Positions 4,789 to 13,105 of a stretch of 39,851 nucleotides of DNA are shown in pieces. Within the stretch, counting starts at the first letter, position 1. The number at the start of each line of letters is the position of its first letter. The stretch covers positions 65,778 through 105,628 of the forward strand of contig CAJXNO010000006.1 of the NCBI GenBank assembly GCA_913057205.1, in the 5' to 3' direction. Made by a program: the position numbers and the translations under genes. The notes under the pieces are model-generated. The model saw only the letters and a program-made list of their open reading frames with translations, was not told the DNA's origin and did no database searches. This DNA comes from an uncultured Flavobacteriales bacterium (GTDB lineage Bacteria > Bacteroidota > Bacteroidia > Flavobacteriales_G > Salibacteraceae).

Positions 4789-5913
4789 TCATTTCAAGGT
4801 GACTTTGACGACGCGCTTTTCGCTGTTGAAATAGATCTTGTTGCGGATTTCACCAAATGGATTGAACTCCACTTGCTCATAGGTAGCGAGGTAGTATTTC
4901 GCTTCTGCGATGACCACATCGTACTTGCCCCAGAGTTGCTTCTCTTGTTGATAGGCAGCGATGAGCTTACCGTCGTCTTCTGAAACACCATCCAACATGA
5001 ACTTGGTTCGGTTGTTCTTGAACTTCACAGGGATCGTATCGCGCCAGACCTCTGCTACCAAACCAATGGATTGAAACTGATTGTCTAGCTCTGCTGGATC
5101 GTCAATCAGCTGGAAGCCTTTCAGAGAATCCGGCTTTAAGACGAAGGTGTTACCGTTCATTTCTGTACGCTCATCCCGCACGTTGGTGATGACGCCATCT
5201 GTATTGATCCGCACCAAGAAGTACTCCTTCAATAAAAAGTCAGCACCCCCCGGGTGACGCCCATCGATCATCGGTTGAACTTGAGCCTCCAAATACTCCG
5301 CCAACATCATCCCCTTCGGTTCAATGCTTGTATTGTCAGGAAGGTCCTTTGAACGCTCTCGCTTGGGCAGGCCGTCCTTATCCATCACCGGCTTGGCTTT
5401 CACCTTTTCTCCTGCGCTCTTCAGGCTGCTGAGGCTTGACCTTAATTCTGTAGACAGCGCATTGAGGTTGGCCAAGGCCTCCTGCTCTTCTTCATCCAGC
5501 GGCTCTTCCTCCTGCACCTCGATCAGTGCCGCTGCTTCTTCCATGGGCTGTACGGCTTGTTTTTCCGGCTCGGGCAGCGTGGGTTCTTCAGCATACACTT
5601 CTTGGCTCAAGGCATCATCCAGTTTTAAGTCGTACTTCGACATCACGGCAGCTGAGGCGTCGGTGTAGGGTACACGTAACTTCATGCCCGATGTAATTTC
5701 TGCCACACCCGGGTTATTTCTCAAAATGGCCTTCGGTGTACTTACGTAAGCGTCAGCAATGGCTTCCAAGGTTTGGCCTTCAAGGACGTTATGAATGTAA
5801 AAGACTTCCCCGCCGAGTATGCGCACCTTGGGATTCAGGTTACTAATTCCCTGTGCAAGGCTCAAATGGTAGGCGGCAATAAGTAAGCAACAAAGGAGCA
5901 ACTGACGTATCAC
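4789..5913 (-). CDS. Exported LysM-domain protein
   Basis: Protein of 374 aa with an N-terminal signal peptide (hydrophobic to about residue 20, cleavage near SLAQG). One LysM peptidoglycan-binding domain covers about 34-81 (HNVLEGQTLEAIADAYVS, then NPGVAEITSGMKLRVPY). An acidic, Glu-rich stretch covers about 105-145, and an uncharacterised C-terminal domain with alternating strands follows. It probably acts in the periplasm on or near the cell wall; no catalytic motif is visible. Its ATG overlaps the stop of the upstream DAHP synthase gene (ATGA, 5910-5913), so translation is likely coupled, although no functional link to aromatic synthesis is apparent. Confidence 0.8.
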   Translation of the reverse strand: MIRQLLLCCLLIAAYHLSLAQGISNLNPKVRILGGEVFYIHNVLEGQTLEAIADAYVSTPKAILRNNPGVAEITSGMKLRVPYTDASAAVMSKYDLKLDDALSQEVYAEEPTLPEPEKQAVQPMEEAAALIEVQEEEPLDEEEQEALANLNALSTELRSSLSSLKSAGEKVKAKPVMDKDGLPKRERSKDLPDNTSIEPKGMMLAEYLEAQVQPMIDGRHPGGADFLLKEYFLVRINTDGVITNVRDERTEMNGNTFVLKPDSLKGFQLIDDPAELDNQFQSIGLVAEVWRDTIPVKFKNNRTKFMLDGVSEDDGKLIAAYQQEKQLWGKYDVVIAEAKYYLATYEQVEFNPFGEIRNKIYFNSEKRVVKVTLK

Positions 5914-7016
5914 GCGTCCAACTTATGCTTTTGTACGATTTCAGTTTGAAGGCGAATACTTGCATTGTGGATGGCCTTCCAAATATCACGGATCAGCTGC
6001 TCGTCTAGTCCACCTGTTTCACCATACTGCTGACGGTCTTTGAGTATCTCGATCCAACGTTCGAGCTGAAAGATTGCCACGCCTGAATCTGCTTTGTACT
6101 CACCGATCTCCTTGACGATCTGGTTACGCTTTGCGAGTTGCTCCAGCAGGATGTAGTCCACTTCATCGATCAGGTCTCTCAAGCGCTGAAGCTTATTAAT
6201 GCTCACAGCATCTTCAAACCCTTCCCTCCTTGTTTGCAATTGCGAAATAAACGCATCGAAGCCGTGCAGGGACACTTGCTGTTTTGGGTCGCTTAAGGCT
6301 TTATCTGGATTCGGATGTGTTTCCACCATCAAACCATCAAAACCCAGGTCAAACGCCTTTTGGGCCACTCCTGCCAGAAGGGAACGCTTTCCTCCAATGT
6401 GGCTCGGGTCAACGATGATCTCCAGGTCGGGAAGCTTGGTCTTCAACTCAATGGGAATCTCCCAATTGGGGGAATTCCTGAAAACATGGTCTTGGTAGGT
6501 ATTGAATCCACGATGGATCGCCACTAACTTATCGATGCCCGTCTTGTTCAATCGTTCGAACGCGCCGATCCAGAGTTGCAGGTCAGGGTTCAACGGGTTC
6601 TTGACAAACACCGGAATATCAACCCCACGCAAAGCGTCTGCGATCTCTTGCACAGAGAATGGGTTAACCGTGGTTCTTGCTCCGATCCACAGGTGTTTGA
6701 TGCCCGCCTTCAGTGCCTGTTCAACGTGCTCAGCTTTTGCCACCTCAACGGTGAATGGGATGCCATACTCAGATTGGATGCGTGTGATCCATGGCAAGGC
6801 CTTTGCTCCAAGTCCTTCAAAGGAATTGGGACGTGTCCTTGGTTTCCAAACCCCTGCTCGAATAAGGTGCACCTTGCCGTTGGCCGATAGCACTTTGGCT
6901 ACTTCTTCGAGCTGTTCCTCGCTTTCGGCACTGCAGGGACCTGCGATCAGAAGAGGTTCGTCACCCCTTGACAACCAGTTTCTGCTGGGTTCACTATGTA
7001 CGTCAGCTACACTCAC
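5910..7016 (-). CDS. Bifunctional 3-deoxy-7-phosphoheptulonate synthase / chorismate mutase
   Basis: Fusion enzyme (368 aa) with two shikimate-pathway activities: condensation of phosphoenolpyruvate with erythrose 4-phosphate to DAHP, and chorismate to prephenate. The DAHP synthase domain is the short type I-beta form: LIAGPCSAES at 23-32, KPRTRPNSFEGLG at 58-70, DPSHIGGKR at 203-211. The chorismate mutase domain (AroQ helical type) covers about 273-360, with LRDLIDEVDYILLEQLAKR. The fusion lets aromatic intermediates feed back on flux. The gap to the receptor gene upstream is only 40 bases, with a TACATTCG element (7/8 to TAnnTTTG) that may give a separate promoter. Confidence 0.96.
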   Translation of the reverse strand: MSVADVHSEPSRNWLSRGDEPLLIAGPCSAESEEQLEEVAKVLSANGKVHLIRAGVWKPRTRPNSFEGLGAKALPWITRIQSEYGIPFTVEVAKAEHVEQALKAGIKHLWIGARTTVNPFSVQEIADALRGVDIPVFVKNPLNPDLQLWIGAFERLNKTGIDKLVAIHRGFNTYQDHVFRNSPNWEIPIELKTKLPDLEIIVDPSHIGGKRSLLAGVAQKAFDLGFDGLMVETHPNPDKALSDPKQQVSLHGFDAFISQLQTRREGFEDAVSINKLQRLRDLIDEVDYILLEQLAKRNQIVKEIGEYKADSGVAIFQLERWIEILKDRQQYGETGGLDEQLIRDIWKAIHNASIRLQTEIVQKHKLDA

Positions 7017-7056: not shown

Positions 7057-9486
7057 TCACAGGCGTAGCTGTAGGGTCATGAAAAACATGCGGCGTTCAC
7101 CTGGGATGATGCCCGGCCCGGGATAGCCTGTTGCCCGACGGGTAAAGTAGACCTCATCGGTGAGGTTGTTCACACTGCCCTCTAAACGGATCCGCTGCCA
7201 CTCATACGCCATGCTCAGGTCGAGTACCGTGTAGGCAGGAATAACTCCAACGGTTGCGTCTGGGAAGAAGGTGGCGTTGGTGGCATCGGTGAATTGCTCG
7301 CTGATATAATTGAACTGCACACCCCCTGAAAAGCCTTCATGCTGGTAGCACAGGCCGGTTCGGTAGTTGATGCTGGGTACATTCTCTACTTTGTTGCCAT
7401 CGAATGCGCTCACCTCCGTACCGATGTACTCTCCGCGCACCAAGGCAATGTTGTTGTACCATGATAAACGCGCATTCGCTTCCGGATCAAAAAGGCGGAG
7501 CAGGTTCAACTCTTCAAATACTTCTACACCGATGAACCTGGCATCTGCAATGTTATCGCGGTAGTTCACGACCCTGCGTACGCCTTGTTCATTGGTTACA
7601 GACGTAAGTCGCTCCCCGATCCGGTTGCTGTAGTGCATCATGAATACCCCAGCATCAAAATTCAAGGCTCCTTTCCACTGGCTCCCCTTTATACCAAGAT
7701 CTAGGGTATAGCCTGATTCATCCCTCAAATTCGGGTCGATCACCAAGTTTGGGTTGCTGACGTAGAGGTCTGAAAAGTTCATTGCTCGGTAATTCTGCGA
7801 AGCGTTGGCATAGACCTCCATGCCCGGAATGCATCGCCAAACCACACCGATACCACCCAAGGCGATGTTTCGTGCGCTTTCTTGACTTGCTGTAACCCGT
7901 TCACGGAACAGCAACTCATTGGTCAGCGGATGCCTCGCCATCTCGGTGTAGTAGCCATCCGTTGCCGTTTGAATGTATTCCAGCCGCACCCCCGGTGTCA
8001 CATACCAACAGGCCGAGATCGGAATGAGGAGCTCCGCAAAGAACGCAGCGTTCTGCGATGGGAAACGGAAGTCAGAACCCTCTAGGTCATTCGGGTCGTT
8101 GAAGCGGTAATCCGCATCGATTCCTGCCGAAGCCTTACCCTGACGGTTGCGGGTATCCCCTCGGTACAAGCGCGTACCCACTAAGAGCGCTCCAGGATTA
8201 TTGGCAATGTTGAAGCGCTGGATCAGTCTTGTTTCATTGCCGACGTTGTTGAACTCCCCGAGGATCAGGTCGCGGAAACCACCGGTATCCACTCTGCTGA
8301 TCGATCCGAGAAAGCCCAATGCTGCTCGGCTGCTATGAAGGGCAAAGGTCTTGCTGTTGATGGTAAGGGTTGGGGTGATCTGTCCGTTGATGGTAACGTT
8401 GAAAACGTTCCAATTCACCCGAAACCAGTTCCGGTCTCGAAAGCTCTCAGATGGATCTAGTTCAAACTGTCGATCGGTGAGTCCGCCGGGTTGTTTTGCA
8501 TTGTAGTGGCTGTGGGTGTTGGCTAAGGATACAGACCAGTGCTCTGAAAGCTGTCGTTCTAGAAAGGCATATCCGCTGTTGGAAACAAAATGTGAATTGG
8601 GTCGCCAGCCATCGCCGCTTCGGTGGCGATAGAAGGTATAGTAATTCCACCCACCTTTCTGTCCGCCAACACTCGTATACGACCCTACGTTGTTGTAACT
8701 GCCGACGGTGTTTCTTGTGATCAATTCGAACGGACGATCCTCATTTCCACGCTTCATTCTAAAGTTGAGTAACCCCCCGAACTGCGTTCCGTACTGCAAG
8801 GAAGCTGCGCCACGTACAAGCTCTAAGCGTTCTACCGCTTCAATCGGTGGCGTGTAGTAGCTTTCCGGATATCCGAGTGCATCTGCGGCGATGTCATATC
8901 CGTCTTGTCGGGTATTGAAGTTGGTGGTACGTTTCGGGTCCAAACCTCGGGCACCCACGCCCAATTGCAATCCTCCCGCATCGGTTTCTTGAATGTTGAT
9001 GCCCGGCACCTTGGTAAAAAGCTGACGACTCGTGTTGTTAGACCGGTTCATCGGCATTTCGTCCGGCAATACGATCTCGTTCTTCTTCGCTGCATAGAGG
9101 CCGTCCACCTCGATGTACTTCAACTTGGCCATGCCGATCGCGTCGCGGTCTTCTTCTACCACATCTACAGCGCGCAGCTCTTCCCCGAAAGCTTGCAGGT
9201 ACACCTTACGGCGAACAGGTTCCGATGCCACGTTCACCTCGATCGTCTGTGCGCGATAACCTTCAGCGAATAAGGTCACGAAGTGCTGTCCTTGACCGAG
9301 TTGTTCAAACAGCACCACGCCCTTCTGGTCTGCGGAAGCCGAAACCTCCGAGTGATCCAAAAACGCCTCTACTTCGGTAGCCTCGGCTCCCTTAGGAAAG
9401 CGAACATCGATCCGAAGGTCTGCCTGCGCGATCGCACCAATGGTCAGGGTGCAAAAGGAGATCACTATGGTCAGGATACGGCTCAT
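7057..9486 (-). CDS. TonB-dependent outer-membrane receptor, FecA-like
   Basis: Outer-membrane active transporter (809 aa) for a large scarce ligand, energised by TonB. The start at 9486 is chosen over 9519 because it begins the signal peptide (MSRILTIVISFC, cleavage near IGAIAQ) and overlaps the upstream stop as ATGA. A carboxypeptidase-regulatory-like domain covers about 25-95. The plug follows, with VPGINIQETDAGGLQLGVGA and the ERLELVRGAASLQYG block, then a 22-strand-type barrel ending in a terminal aromatic/Leu strand (RRMFFMTLQLRL). The GARGLDPKRTTNF segment resembles ferric-dicitrate-type receptors. It is the last gene of the DUF4856-imelysin-HTTM-receptor set, which points to iron or a metal chelate; substrate not proven. 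Confidence 0.92.
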   Translation of the reverse strand: MSRILTIVISFCTLTIGAIAQADLRIDVRFPKGAEATEVEAFLDHSEVSASADQKGVVLFEQLGQGQHFVTLFAEGYRAQTIEVNVASEPVRRKVYLQAFGEELRAVDVVEEDRDAIGMAKLKYIEVDGLYAAKKNEIVLPDEMPMNRSNNTSRQLFTKVPGINIQETDAGGLQLGVGARGLDPKRTTNFNTRQDGYDIAADALGYPESYYTPPIEAVERLELVRGAASLQYGTQFGGLLNFRMKRGNEDRPFELITRNTVGSYNNVGSYTSVGGQKGGWNYYTFYRHRSGDGWRPNSHFVSNSGYAFLERQLSEHWSVSLANTHSHYNAKQPGGLTDRQFELDPSESFRDRNWFRVNWNVFNVTINGQITPTLTINSKTFALHSSRAALGFLGSISRVDTGGFRDLILGEFNNVGNETRLIQRFNIANNPGALLVGTRLYRGDTRNRQGKASAGIDADYRFNDPNDLEGSDFRFPSQNAAFFAELLIPISACWYVTPGVRLEYIQTATDGYYTEMARHPLTNELLFRERVTASQESARNIALGGIGVVWRCIPGMEVYANASQNYRAMNFSDLYVSNPNLVIDPNLRDESGYTLDLGIKGSQWKGALNFDAGVFMMHYSNRIGERLTSVTNEQGVRRVVNYRDNIADARFIGVEVFEELNLLRLFDPEANARLSWYNNIALVRGEYIGTEVSAFDGNKVENVPSINYRTGLCYQHEGFSGGVQFNYISEQFTDATNATFFPDATVGVIPAYTVLDLSMAYEWQRIRLEGSVNNLTDEVYFTRRATGYPGPGIIPGERRMFFMTLQLRL

Positions 9487-10817
9487 TGCAATGGCTTGAT
9501 CCAGGGTTTGTTTGTCCAAGAGTCGCTGAGGGATGCGAGGTTTACTTCCGCGTCAATATAGGGCTGACTGCTTCTGCCATTATGGCTTACGCGAACGTCT
9601 GCGGACACGCGTTCAACGCTGATTCCCTCCGCTTCAAAGTGCTCCTTCAAATGCGCCGCATACTGCAAGATGAAATCGCTTTGTGTGGCCATCATTTTCT
9701 CCTGCACGGGCGTGAGAAATTCGCTGTTGTCTACCCAAAGCTCACCTCCAGTAGCATCTACCACTTTGAACTGGGCGTAGCCTGCTTTCTCCACCAGCAT
9801 CACCCTCCAGCCGAAGCGATAGCCTTGTTCATGCCACAATGGGTCGCCCGGGTAGAGCAGGTTTCTGAAGGGAAACAGGGTTTGTACAAGCACATACAAG
9901 GCGAGAACGGTCGTTAAGACCGGTTGCAAGCGCTTCGAACTCTCTTGCACAACATTCTCTCCCCAAACTGGAAGGCGAAGTTGACGTTGCCACCTTTCAT
10001 GCGTACTAGCAGGAAAGAAGATCAAGGTTGCACCGATCATGATGAAGGGAAACATCCCGATCTGAAACAACCACCAAGTCATCACGTGGAAAGCGATCAC
10101 CGCTAGGTAGGCAAAGGGTCTGGTTGGACGCCACAGCAGCAGGAAAGGAATACTCAGGTCATACAATGCTCCGAACCAACTGAACAAATGGGGCGCTGCC
10201 CACCACTCCATGAGGTAGCCCAACACCGGCAAGTGTGCCTGCGTAGGCAACCAGATCGCCAAGGGCATTGCGTGGATCAACCAGTCTTCGTTAAGCTTCG
10301 CAACGCCGGCGAGAAAGTAGACCACTCCGAGTTGAAACATCACCAACCAAATGCTCCAGGCAGACACCTTTTTCAAAGGTTTCACCCAGCCAAGAGCAAC
10401 GTCGAGTGACGACTGCCGACCAGCAGGCAAGAAGATGAGCAGCAGGGAAACCAGGCTCACGAAATAGTAATGGTTCAAGTAGTAGGTAGCATCGATCAGC
10501 TCCACGTAGGTAAAGAGTAAAAAGAAGGCCGCGGCCGCATAGCGGTAGAACAAACCGAGCGCGATCATGCTGGCGGCAACGGCCATCATCAGGAAGCACG
10601 CATAGATCACGGCGCTGGTAGGGTCCGGGATCCAGTAGAAGCCGAAGTACTTGAAATGAAAGCTCGGCGTAATGAATTGATCTTCGATCCAACCATTTGC
10701 CCAAAAACGAAAAATGCTCGCTACCATGAGCGAGCCAAAAACGATACGGAAGGTCACCAGCGGCGCGATCGATATCGGTTCAAAAAGCTTTCTATGCAAC
10801 CAGGAGCTAGTCACCAT
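9483..10817 (-). CDS. HTTM-domain membrane protein, vitamin K-dependent gamma-carboxylase-like
   Basis: Integral membrane protein of 444 aa. Several transmembrane helices fill about 15-270 (for example 70-92, 95-130, 155-172, 235-268), another lies near 297-315, and a soluble C-terminal domain follows. Motifs shared with HTTM/VKGC proteins are YYLNHYYFVSL (112-122), GVAKLNEDWL (171-180), AFHVMTWWLFQIGMFPF (242-258) and YPGDPLWHEQGYRFGWRVML (322-341). Characterised relatives carboxylate glutamates using a reduced quinone, O2 and CO2; whether this one is active is unknown. Reading frames overlap the imelysin gene (11 bases) and the receptor gene (4 bases), so all three are made together. It may modify a partner lipoprotein or the receptor; that is inference. 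Confidence 0.85.
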   Translation of the reverse strand: MVTSSWLHRKLFEPISIAPLVTFRIVFGSLMVASIFRFWANGWIEDQFITPSFHFKYFGFYWIPDPTSAVIYACFLMMAVAASMIALGLFYRYAAAAFFLLFTYVELIDATYYLNHYYFVSLVSLLLIFLPAGRQSSLDVALGWVKPLKKVSAWSIWLVMFQLGVVYFLAGVAKLNEDWLIHAMPLAIWLPTQAHLPVLGYLMEWWAAPHLFSWFGALYDLSIPFLLLWRPTRPFAYLAVIAFHVMTWWLFQIGMFPFIMIGATLIFFPASTHERWQRQLRLPVWGENVVQESSKRLQPVLTTVLALYVLVQTLFPFRNLLYPGDPLWHEQGYRFGWRVMLVEKAGYAQFKVVDATGGELWVDNSEFLTPVQEKMMATQSDFILQYAAHLKEHFEAEGISVERVSADVRVSHNGRSSQPYIDAEVNLASLSDSWTNKPWIKPLQ

Positions 10818-11883
10818 CGTTGTCTTGGTAGGTGATCTGTACTCCCAGCTGAGAAGGCATATCTGTTTTGAGTAACACCACTAAGTTTTGCAGGGAGGTG
10901 TGCAGTTCTTCAACTTGACCCGAACTGTTCAAGATGGCATCGGGCAGCGTTGATGCGATCGCGTTGGTGTTGCTCAAGCATTCATCGAACTGCTCAACGA
11001 TGGCCGCACTCAACATGCCTTCACCGTATCGCGCATCGAGGTGGTCAAGGTAGTCGTCAAGACCAAGTCCTTCTCCTCCCTTAAAAGTGTTTTGCTGTGC
11101 CGTCAATGCTGCATTGATGCAATCCAAAGAACGCTCGGCGTAGTATGCCTCCACTTTCTCCTCTTGGGGCACACCAAGCGACTTCTTACCCAATGGAATG
11201 CCGACGCGTGCATTCTTCACGAGTTCAAACTCATAGTTCAATTCGTTCACCAACTGACCGAGTGCGCTTCCTACATCGTTACCAAGGTTCTTTACAAACT
11301 CGTCGCGGTAGCTGTTTTGCCAAGCATCGTTCACGGTGGTGAACTCCTCAACCAGCAGGTCAATGTTCACGGATAGCTGTTCTAAGCGGTCAGCCGACCA
11401 ATCGCCTTCCTGAGAGCGAGGGCCGAACAACAAATAGTCGAGTGCTGGTAGACCTTTTGCATCGGTATTGCTTGCTGTACTCAGGTCGGCGTTACCCTCA
11501 CGTATATTACGCTCGATCTGCGCGGTATCTGTTGGAAAGGTATTGGCCGTCCTGCGCAGGTTCTCATCGGCTGCCGGACCGAACTCGAACGGGGCACAGC
11601 GTTGCCATTGGAGTTGCAGCGTTACAAAGGCCTCTCGGGCAACATCGCGTTGTGTATTCGATGGGTCAGCTTGCAATGCATCAATGGCACTTTTCAGCGT
11701 GTTCGCATCGTCTGCAAGCTGCGTGTATGCTGGCATGATGACGTTATCCGCCAAGTTGGTCAGCATCGCCTCTTTATCGAAGGTATCCGCTGGCTCGTTG
11801 TCTTCTGGGTCTTTACATCCAGAGAGCTGAATAAGCGCAACCGCCAATGCAGCGGCAATTATTGGAGTGAATCGGTGAAACAT
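10807..11883 (-). CDS. Imelysin-like lipoprotein
   Basis: Protein of 358 aa of the imelysin/insulin-cleaving (peptidase M75, IrpA-like) family, all-helical proteins tied to iron uptake. Signal peptide with lipobox LSGC (Cys23), followed by acidic KDPED, which suits surface display. The conserved block reads GLPALDYLLFGP (144-155), where typical imelysins have GxHxxE; histidine and glutamate are replaced by Pro/Ala and Asp context, so a metal site or peptidase activity should not be assumed. The C-terminus ends in the family-typical ITYQDNDGD. It follows the DUF4856 gene by three bases and overlaps the HTTM gene. Confidence 0.9.
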   Translation of the reverse strand: MFHRFTPIIAAALAVALIQLSGCKDPEDNEPADTFDKEAMLTNLADNVIMPAYTQLADDANTLKSAIDALQADPSNTQRDVAREAFVTLQLQWQRCAPFEFGPAADENLRRTANTFPTDTAQIERNIREGNADLSTASNTDAKGLPALDYLLFGPRSQEGDWSADRLEQLSVNIDLLVEEFTTVNDAWQNSYRDEFVKNLGNDVGSALGQLVNELNYEFELVKNARVGIPLGKKSLGVPQEEKVEAYYAERSLDCINAALTAQQNTFKGGEGLGLDDYLDHLDARYGEGMLSAAIVEQFDECLSNTNAIASTLPDAILNSSGQVEELHTSLQNLVVLLKTDMPSQLGVQITYQDNDGD

Positions 11884-11886
11884 GGA

Positions 11887-12981
11887 TCAGAGTTGAGATT
11901 TGACATCCTCCATTTCGTAGATCTCGGCTAGGAGGTCACGCGCTTGTTGGAGATTGTCTGAAGAAACTTCGTAGAAATTCTCACCTAGCAAGTCGATGAC
12001 CTGATCGATCTGTGCTTGCTCGATGCGCTTTTCTGGGTTGAAGGCCAAGTTTGTAGTGAAGGCCTTTGCCTCAGAGAGCACGTGATTTCGAATGAGGTCA
12101 TCCCCGAGGTTATTCAGTGCATCGTTGAGGTAGTGGATGGCCGTAGCCGCACATACATCCTCCCACGCGGTGCGGGCTTCAGCAATGGCTTCATCCCGCA
12201 TATCATACTCCTTCACGGTGATGCCGGTTCGTCCTTTGCGGAGGGCATAGCTCAAGGTTTCATTGGTTCCGAGCAAAGCGTCTCGACCTACGCAGTATTT
12301 ACCCCAGAAGCGAACATCCTCTGTATTGGTCGGGACGTCGTTGCTTACACCCAGGTACCCGTAGGCCTCATCCCAATGGTGCTCCATTTCGGTTCCTTCA
12401 CCTGGCTCGACTGTCTCATTATCGACGTCCATCTTTTCATCTCCCATGTAAACTGTAACTGCTTGGTAGTAGAACACCGCACCCATCAGTTCCTTCTCGA
12501 TGTATTGGATGTGCTCCACGCCGTTCTCGTCGAAGAGGTAAGCCTTTATTCCATCTTCTGATGTCATCACACCCGCCTGACCATTTGCCGCAGGCTGGGT
12601 ACTCTCACTGGCCTTCACCAACTCGCTGATGTATGCCTCAATGTTCGAAACATGCGGTCCAAAACACTTATCCTTGAGTTGCTTAGAGCTCTCGAAAGAG
12701 AAGTTTCCATTTGCGTTGCCATTGGCATTTTCGAACATGTCTAACAAGACCTGCTTATCTAACCGAACACCAGCCGTGTTGGCCGTCTTCATGTAGGCAG
12801 TCATTTCTTCCAACTGATCAAGACGTTCTGTTTGCCCGCTGTAGCTTACGTTCTCGAATGCGTAGGTAGCTGGTACTGGATACTCAGGGGTTACTTGAAC
12901 GGGGTCATTGTCTGAACAAGACTGCATTCCGATGGCGATTAGAACAGCGAGAAAGGAATGGGCAAGGAGAGAAAATCGCAT
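11887..12981 (-). CDS. DUF4856-like lipoprotein
   Basis: Protein of 364 aa, lipidated at Cys22 (GMQSC), followed by SDND, a surface-export-like acidic signal. The N-terminal block YAFENVSYSGQTERLDQLEEM (split around residues 40-60) is the hallmark I associate with DUF4856. The rest is mostly helical. A conspicuous HHWDEAYGY motif (201-209) contains an HxxE that could bind a metal, and FWGKYC (225-230) follows. Function is unknown. It is the first gene of the imelysin/HTTM/receptor operon, with its own promoter and a candidate operator. Ligand capture at the cell surface for the receptor is a reasonable guess, not shown. Confidence 0.83.
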   Translation of the reverse strand: MRFSLLAHSFLAVLIAIGMQSCSDNDPVQVTPEYPVPATYAFENVSYSGQTERLDQLEEMTAYMKTANTAGVRLDKQVLLDMFENANGNANGNFSFESSKQLKDKCFGPHVSNIEAYISELVKASESTQPAANGQAGVMTSEDGIKAYLFDENGVEHIQYIEKELMGAVFYYQAVTVYMGDEKMDVDNETVEPGEGTEMEHHWDEAYGYLGVSNDVPTNTEDVRFWGKYCVGRDALLGTNETLSYALRKGRTGITVKEYDMRDEAIAEARTAWEDVCAATAIHYLNDALNNLGDDLIRNHVLSEAKAFTTNLAFNPEKRIEQAQIDQVIDLLGENFYEVSSDNLQQARDLLAEIYEMEDVKSQL

Positions 12982-12989
12982 GGTTGTGT

Positions 12990-13012
12990 TTATTTAGACC
13001 GACTTTAAATAA
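12990..13012. promoter_or_regulatory. Inverted repeat, candidate operator of the DUF4856-imelysin-HTTM-receptor operon
   Basis: TTATTTA at 12990-12996 and TAAATAA at 13006-13012 are perfect reverse complements separated by nine bases. The repeat ends five bases short of the TATGTTTG element, so it would cover the predicted transcript start and the 5' leader. This is where a repressor would block transcription. The AT-rich 23-bp shape is in the size range of Fur/DtxR-type iron operators, but the regulator is not in the window. Confidence 0.5.
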
Positions 13013-13070: not shown

Positions 13071-13105
13071 AAAAAAAAGCCTGGACCAATTTGGCCAAGG
13101 CTTTT
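13071..13105 (-). terminator. Intrinsic terminator of the PKD lipoprotein gene
   Basis: On the minus strand, AAAAGCCT..GGCC pairs with GGTCC..AGGCTTTT around a short AATT loop, followed by eight T (A-run at 13071-13078 on the plus strand). It begins 23 bases past the PKD gene stop and insulates the iron-type operon downstream of it. Confidence 0.8.

Follow-up and report, generated by a model that had tools for sequence, protein, structure and literature searches.

A Fur-box operon conserved across Bacteroidota joins a FecA-like receptor and two lipoproteins to a homologue of the vitamin K carboxylase

The window, a stretch of 39,851 nucleotides from an uncultured Flavobacteriales bacterium, holds four genes on the minus strand in the order DUF4856 lipoprotein, imelysin-like lipoprotein, vitamin K gamma-carboxylase (VKGC) homologue and FecA-like TonB-dependent receptor (Table 1). 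The ORF coordinates agree with the spacing given in the original prediction: three bases separate the DUF4856 and imelysin genes, and the imelysin/VKGC and VKGC/receptor pairs overlap by 11 and 4 bases, respectively. The receptor ORF begins with the ATG at 9486; the start at 9519 in the ORF list is merely the first in-frame TTG. A terminator-like hairpin stands between the operon and the PKD gene upstream, and a gene for a fused DAHP synthase-chorismate mutase (5910-7016, minus strand) begins about 40 bases past the receptor stop.

Table 1. Positions of the operon genes and flanking signals in the window.
Feature	Positions	Strand	Details
DUF4856 lipoprotein	11887..12981	-	First gene, 364 aa; PF16148, E 3.5e-37
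Imelysin-like (M75) lipoprotein	10807..11883	-	Second gene, 358 aa; PF09375, E 3.2e-41
VKGC homologue	9483..10817	-	Third gene, 444 aa; PF05090, E 2e-73, and PF22777, E 4.2e-47
FecA-like TonB-dependent receptor	7057..9486	-	Last gene, 809 aa; PF00593, PF07715
Fur-type box ATTTAAAGTCGGTCTAAAT	12992..13010	-	10 bases upstream of the DUF4856 ATG
Terminator-like hairpin and T-run	13071..13102	-	Downstream of the PKD gene; direct sequence reading

We examined 296 genomes of the phylum, taking about 15 kb around each match, together with loci from named genomes. DUF4856 was found in 50 of the 296 genomes, and 46 of these 50 have a VKGC gene on the same strand no more than 4 kb away. One order, DUF4856, imelysin, VKGC and receptor, is kept throughout the matched loci. 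More sensitive profiles recover the complete set of four in this order at 55/61 sampled operon-type loci and at 70/80 loci of named genomes, which include Flavobacteriales, Saprospiraceae, Cytophagales, Chitinophagales, Fodinibius, Rhodothermaceae and Thermochlorobacteriaceae. Counted by hand, the operon genomes span 16 sampled families of the phylum and comprise many aerobic relatives of the source bacterium. Because the identical gene order recurs across the phylum, a chance arrangement is excluded, and the possibility raised with the original prediction, that the neighbourhood is confined to close relatives, falls away.

The genes also co-occur: the operon-type receptor and the operon-type imelysin are each present in 61 of the 62 genomes with an operon VKGC, as against 1 and 0, respectively, of the 234 genomes without one (Fisher p <1e-60, a value that ignores shared ancestry). 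The operon VKGCs form a single clade (support 100/99), within which falls a solitary copy, locus L107 of genome G108. This genome keeps VKGC with the receptor and DUF4856 both absent, and the placement of its enzyme suggests that the operon was lost later. Genome G109 keeps the receptor and DUF4856, at different places in the genome, with VKGC absent, and we counted both genomes against the mechanism favoured below. G108, which holds an operon-clade VKGC by itself, would also fit an enzyme that targets proteins encoded elsewhere, the operon just coupling its expression to iron; however, imelysin and receptor accompany this VKGC almost without exception, which favours a local partner, and we regard a distant target as improbable. 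The sole partner of VKGC is the receptor at L178 and L179, DUF4856 at L185 and imelysin at L186; these exceptions do not favour any one partner. At L142 (7225-11101) a DUF4856 gene adjoins a TonB receptor gene with no VKGC, imelysin or Fur box; DUF4856 may pair with receptors by itself. The evidence supports treating the four genes as one ancient unit headed by an iron box.

The box itself is a palindrome, ATTTAGAnnnnnTCTAAAT, which is found upstream of DUF4856 with at least 12 of its 14 positions matched at 51/58 loci, where shuffled sequences would lead one to expect 0.4; it is absent at all four DUF4856 loci that have no VKGC. The copy in the window, ATTTAAAGTCGGTCTAAAT, fits 13 of the 14 consensus positions; the source genome, which encodes Fur, has just one other site that matches the pattern perfectly. 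This second perfect site (L160:3606-3624) is 31 bases upstream of a SUF operon for Fe-S assembly, in which an IscA/SufA-like gene is followed by sufB and a sufC-like gene. Weaker sites precede an HmuY-like gene, a multihaem cytochrome, a ferredoxin and feoB. Promoter boxes here and at the other loci fit membership of the Fur regulon, and ATTTAAAGTCGGTCTAAAT matches the published Fur box of Riemerella, ATTTAGAATTATTCTAAAT (PMC5609570). Riemerella anatipestifer carries the same four gene types as RAYM_09779-09794, and expression of all four climbs 2.1-3.1-fold when iron is low and 1.4-1.9-fold when fur is mutated (PMC5609570); the hypothetical protein RAYM_09794 we infer to be DUF4856 from its position in the gene set. 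The iron response anticipated in the original prediction is supported by the Fur box, by the iron-regulon box shared within the source genome and by the Riemerella RNA-seq. By analogy with Riemerella, to which the expression data belong, the operon here would be Fur-repressed.

PMC5609570 lists these genes in a table and proposes no function for them; among the searchable papers, no other mentions imelysin together with gamma-carboxylase. The same searchable papers yielded nothing on DUF4856, nothing on any two of DUF4856, imelysin and HTTM, and no proposed function for an operon-type system.

The receptor was predicted to be FecA-like, and the best PDB match of its profile is indeed E. coli FecA (1pnz, E 1.9e-37, profile 141-804), the next-best solved receptor reaching E 2.6e-15. 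Similar to the Fe(III)-dicitrate receptor FecA, it has a plug and barrel over its whole length; unlike FecA, it is accompanied by two lipoproteins and a VKGC. Three of the nearest homologues without VKGC adjoin genes that look like feoB, as judged by the protein start. It is conceivable that the operon imports a cargo other than iron, such as another metal, haem or a vitamin, given that Fur-type boxes may govern other metals and that the ligands of imelysins are unsettled (PMC3143127). The Fur and iron response in Riemerella, the FecA similarity and a box that recurs at Fe-S, FeoB and HmuY-like genes argue against such a cargo, which we consider very unlikely, and we hold with high confidence that the operon serves iron uptake.

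FecA imports a carboxylate chelate, which would fit a reading in which the substrate of VKGC is an iron chelator, either a small molecule or a secreted peptide, that the receptor then retrieves. VKGC and receptor do remain together without the lipoproteins at L178 and L179. However, the operon has no gene for chelator synthesis or for a small peptide, and the gaps between its genes are too small for one; a modified chelator seems quite unlikely.

The lipobox Cys is conserved in each of the two lipoproteins (C22 and C23), in line with the original prediction. At least two acidic residues directly follow the lipid Cys in 92/123 DUF4856 and 57/135 imelysin copies, compared with 15% and 10% in the controls. 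This acidic stretch resembles the flavobacterial signal for lipoprotein surface export, and both proteins are probably surface-exposed. The acidic character given to them in the original prediction comes at least in part from a short segment rich in Asp just behind the lipid Cys, which looks like such an export signal.

The AlphaFold model of DUF4856 is mostly helical (pLDDT 93.8). Among PDB folds it had no standout match (the best Foldseek E was 0.4, and the best VIA Z, 8.7, covered 93 helical residues), which does not establish a new fold, and its kinship with imelysin is borderline by hhalign (probability 89, 136 columns). Its conserved residues are E156, D204, H300 and E304. Of the 129 operon copies, 126-128 retain E156, H300 and E304, which are degenerate in three of the four DUF4856 copies without VKGC, the exception being that of G109. 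This pattern of conservation marks a functional site and is not evidence of modification.

The imelysin profile matches the PDB imelysins 3n8u, 3pf0 and 4ecg. In the protein encoded here, GLPALD replaces the GxHxxE motif and there is a C-terminal DGD. The GxHxxE His is lost in 134/135 VKGC-linked imelysins, so their site must work differently; all nine nearest imelysins without VKGC keep it. A variant without this His is already known in IPPA (PMC3143127). The imelysin iron operons of Leptospira (LruB) and Pseudomonas (ICMP) likewise combine imelysin lipoproteins with a nearby TonB receptor, and that of Leptospira responds to iron (PMC13066512). Those operons carry a di-haem oxidoreductase, whereas the four-gene operon has none, adds DUF4856 and VKGC, and has an imelysin that has lost the GxHxxE His. 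One cluster (L182:2177-9812) contains two imelysins, a di-haem oxidoreductase, a VKGC and a FecA-like receptor, a hybrid that possibly links LruB-type operons to the VKGC operon. At L280, L282 and L283, imelysin pairs (GxHxxE and GxPxxE) flank a gene of 471-473 aa, probably a di-haem oxidoreductase.

The third gene encodes both an HTTM domain and a VKGC lumenal domain, each far above cut-off, and is thus a full bacterial VKGC core and not a bare HTTM protein. The original prediction called it an HTTM protein; the carboxylase-like character it gave the protein stands, but the lumenal domain (PF22777) went unmentioned. Human GGCX, the vitamin K carboxylase that acts in blood clotting, was matched by phmmer (E ~1e-27, about 27% identity). 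The predicted model (pLDDT 89.5) superimposes on human GGCX (9wfc) with a VIA Z of 31.4 and an rmsd of 3.0 over 432/444 residues, covering human 42-506. The active site of GGCX comprises K218 as the base, H160 and N159 at the Glu side chain, with W223, G259, F286, F294 and F299 at the quinone pocket (PMC12589487). Equivalents of all these residues are invariant in 60/60 operon copies, those of K218, H160 and N159 being K174, H116 and N115 in the enzyme encoded here, and the Y395 equivalent is Tyr or Phe in every operon copy. The operon enzyme therefore shares with GGCX the HTTM and first lumenal domains, the fold, K218, N159/H160 and the quinone pocket of F286/F294/F299/W223.

It differs from GGCX in that the equivalents of K217, N158, M401 and R436 are changed (K217A, N158L, M401V), the C99-C450 pair is absent and Y425 is not conserved. 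In the alignment and the model, human residues after 506, which include the second propeptide lobe and the Arch, have no counterpart, and the propeptide clamp, a two-lobe exosite that characterises the animal enzyme but not the Pfam family, is largely missing from the operon VKGC. With the catalytic residues kept and half of the clamp lost, the chemistry appears intact and substrate recognition different. The source genome encodes MenD, and VKOR, which would recycle the epoxide, was not found in it, a further difference from the human system. The men route is not a requirement because MenD is missing in some genomes with an operon VKGC. A link to O2 through cytochrome oxidase was uninformative, since COX1 occurs in all operon-VKGC genomes yet also in 283/296 overall.

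A second class of VKGC occurs in Flavobacteriaceae-type genomes (mid-locus in L097, L102, L105, L112, L113, L117, L118, L129, L130 and L131), directly after a gene of about 310 aa and often adjacent to ribF. Pfam identifies this neighbour as ribF (FAD synthetase/riboflavin kinase) in L097, and the protein start does so in L131; a seryl-tRNA synthetase follows in L097. The second class keeps K218/H160/N159 in a gene context unrelated to iron.

We know of no proven substrate for any bacterial VKGC. A Gla-domain-like Glu cluster was sought in DUF4856, imelysin and the receptor; none was clearly above shuffles in any of the three candidates. Nor does any invariant Glu in the operon proteins clearly depend on the presence of VKGC. 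Invariant Glu residues of the receptor are mostly common to homologues without VKGC; E590, which stood out against the nearest homologues, is Glu in 7/9 more distant receptors and was discarded as VKGC-specific. The missing Gla-like cluster, the receptor Glu shared with VKGC-less homologues, and the absence of half of the clamp and of VKOR were all counted against carboxylation, as were the changes at K217, N158, M401 and R436 and the altered activity reported for the Leptospira homologue.

These gaps can be read in another way: within an iron-uptake operon, VKGC might oxidise menaquinol by epoxidation and carboxylate no protein, its base and O2 chemistry serving another step such as chelate treatment or a redox role. 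A substrate-recognition lobe is absent, the Glu-pocket backbone residues N158 and R436 are changed, no Gla-like cluster is seen and the source genome has no VKOR; the Leptospira homologue, which reportedly has altered activity unsuited to protein carboxylation, would be a precedent. However, the two residues that grip the Glu side chain in GGCX, N159 and H160, never vary among the operon copies, the Y395 position always has Tyr or Phe, and epoxidation by itself is in our judgement unlikely, though to be taken seriously.

Since the catalytic and Glu-binding residues of GGCX are kept, Glu carboxylation with menaquinol is chemically plausible, though unproven. We tentatively favour, as the best single mechanism, a VKGC that carboxylates Glu on a protein of the operon, as the original prediction had proposed for a lipoprotein; that the enzyme does so is quite possible, and the same guarded judgement applies to iron uptake and Glu carboxylation taken as one statement. 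When iron is scarce, the receptor and both lipoproteins would assemble at the outer membrane into a complex for the capture and import of a ferric chelate. The inner-membrane VKGC would spend menaquinol, O2 and CO2 on proteins crossing the periplasm and gamma-carboxylate one or a few Glu on one operon protein, yielding gamma-carboxyglutamate (Gla), which could then aid iron binding or assembly of the complex. E156 or E304 of DUF4856 and E220 or E245 of the imelysin would be the leading candidate sites. The fuller version, in which an operon for iron starvation converts Glu of the receptor or of a lipoprotein so that Gla helps capture iron, is somewhat less likely.

We conclude that the operon is very probably an ancient Fur-controlled iron-uptake unit with a vitamin K-type carboxylase as a fixed part, present in about one-fifth of the sampled genomes of the phylum. 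For a bacterial homologue of the vitamin K carboxylase, the operon supplies a physiological setting, iron starvation, and a short list of three likely substrates (receptor, imelysin and DUF4856), which makes the role of such homologues directly testable. The finding suggests that bacteria may modify proteins chemically to capture iron. If this is true, bacteria would make gamma-carboxyglutamate, much of the phylum would have a Gla-based uptake system, and enzymes related to the carboxylase of blood clotting would gain a bacterial setting.
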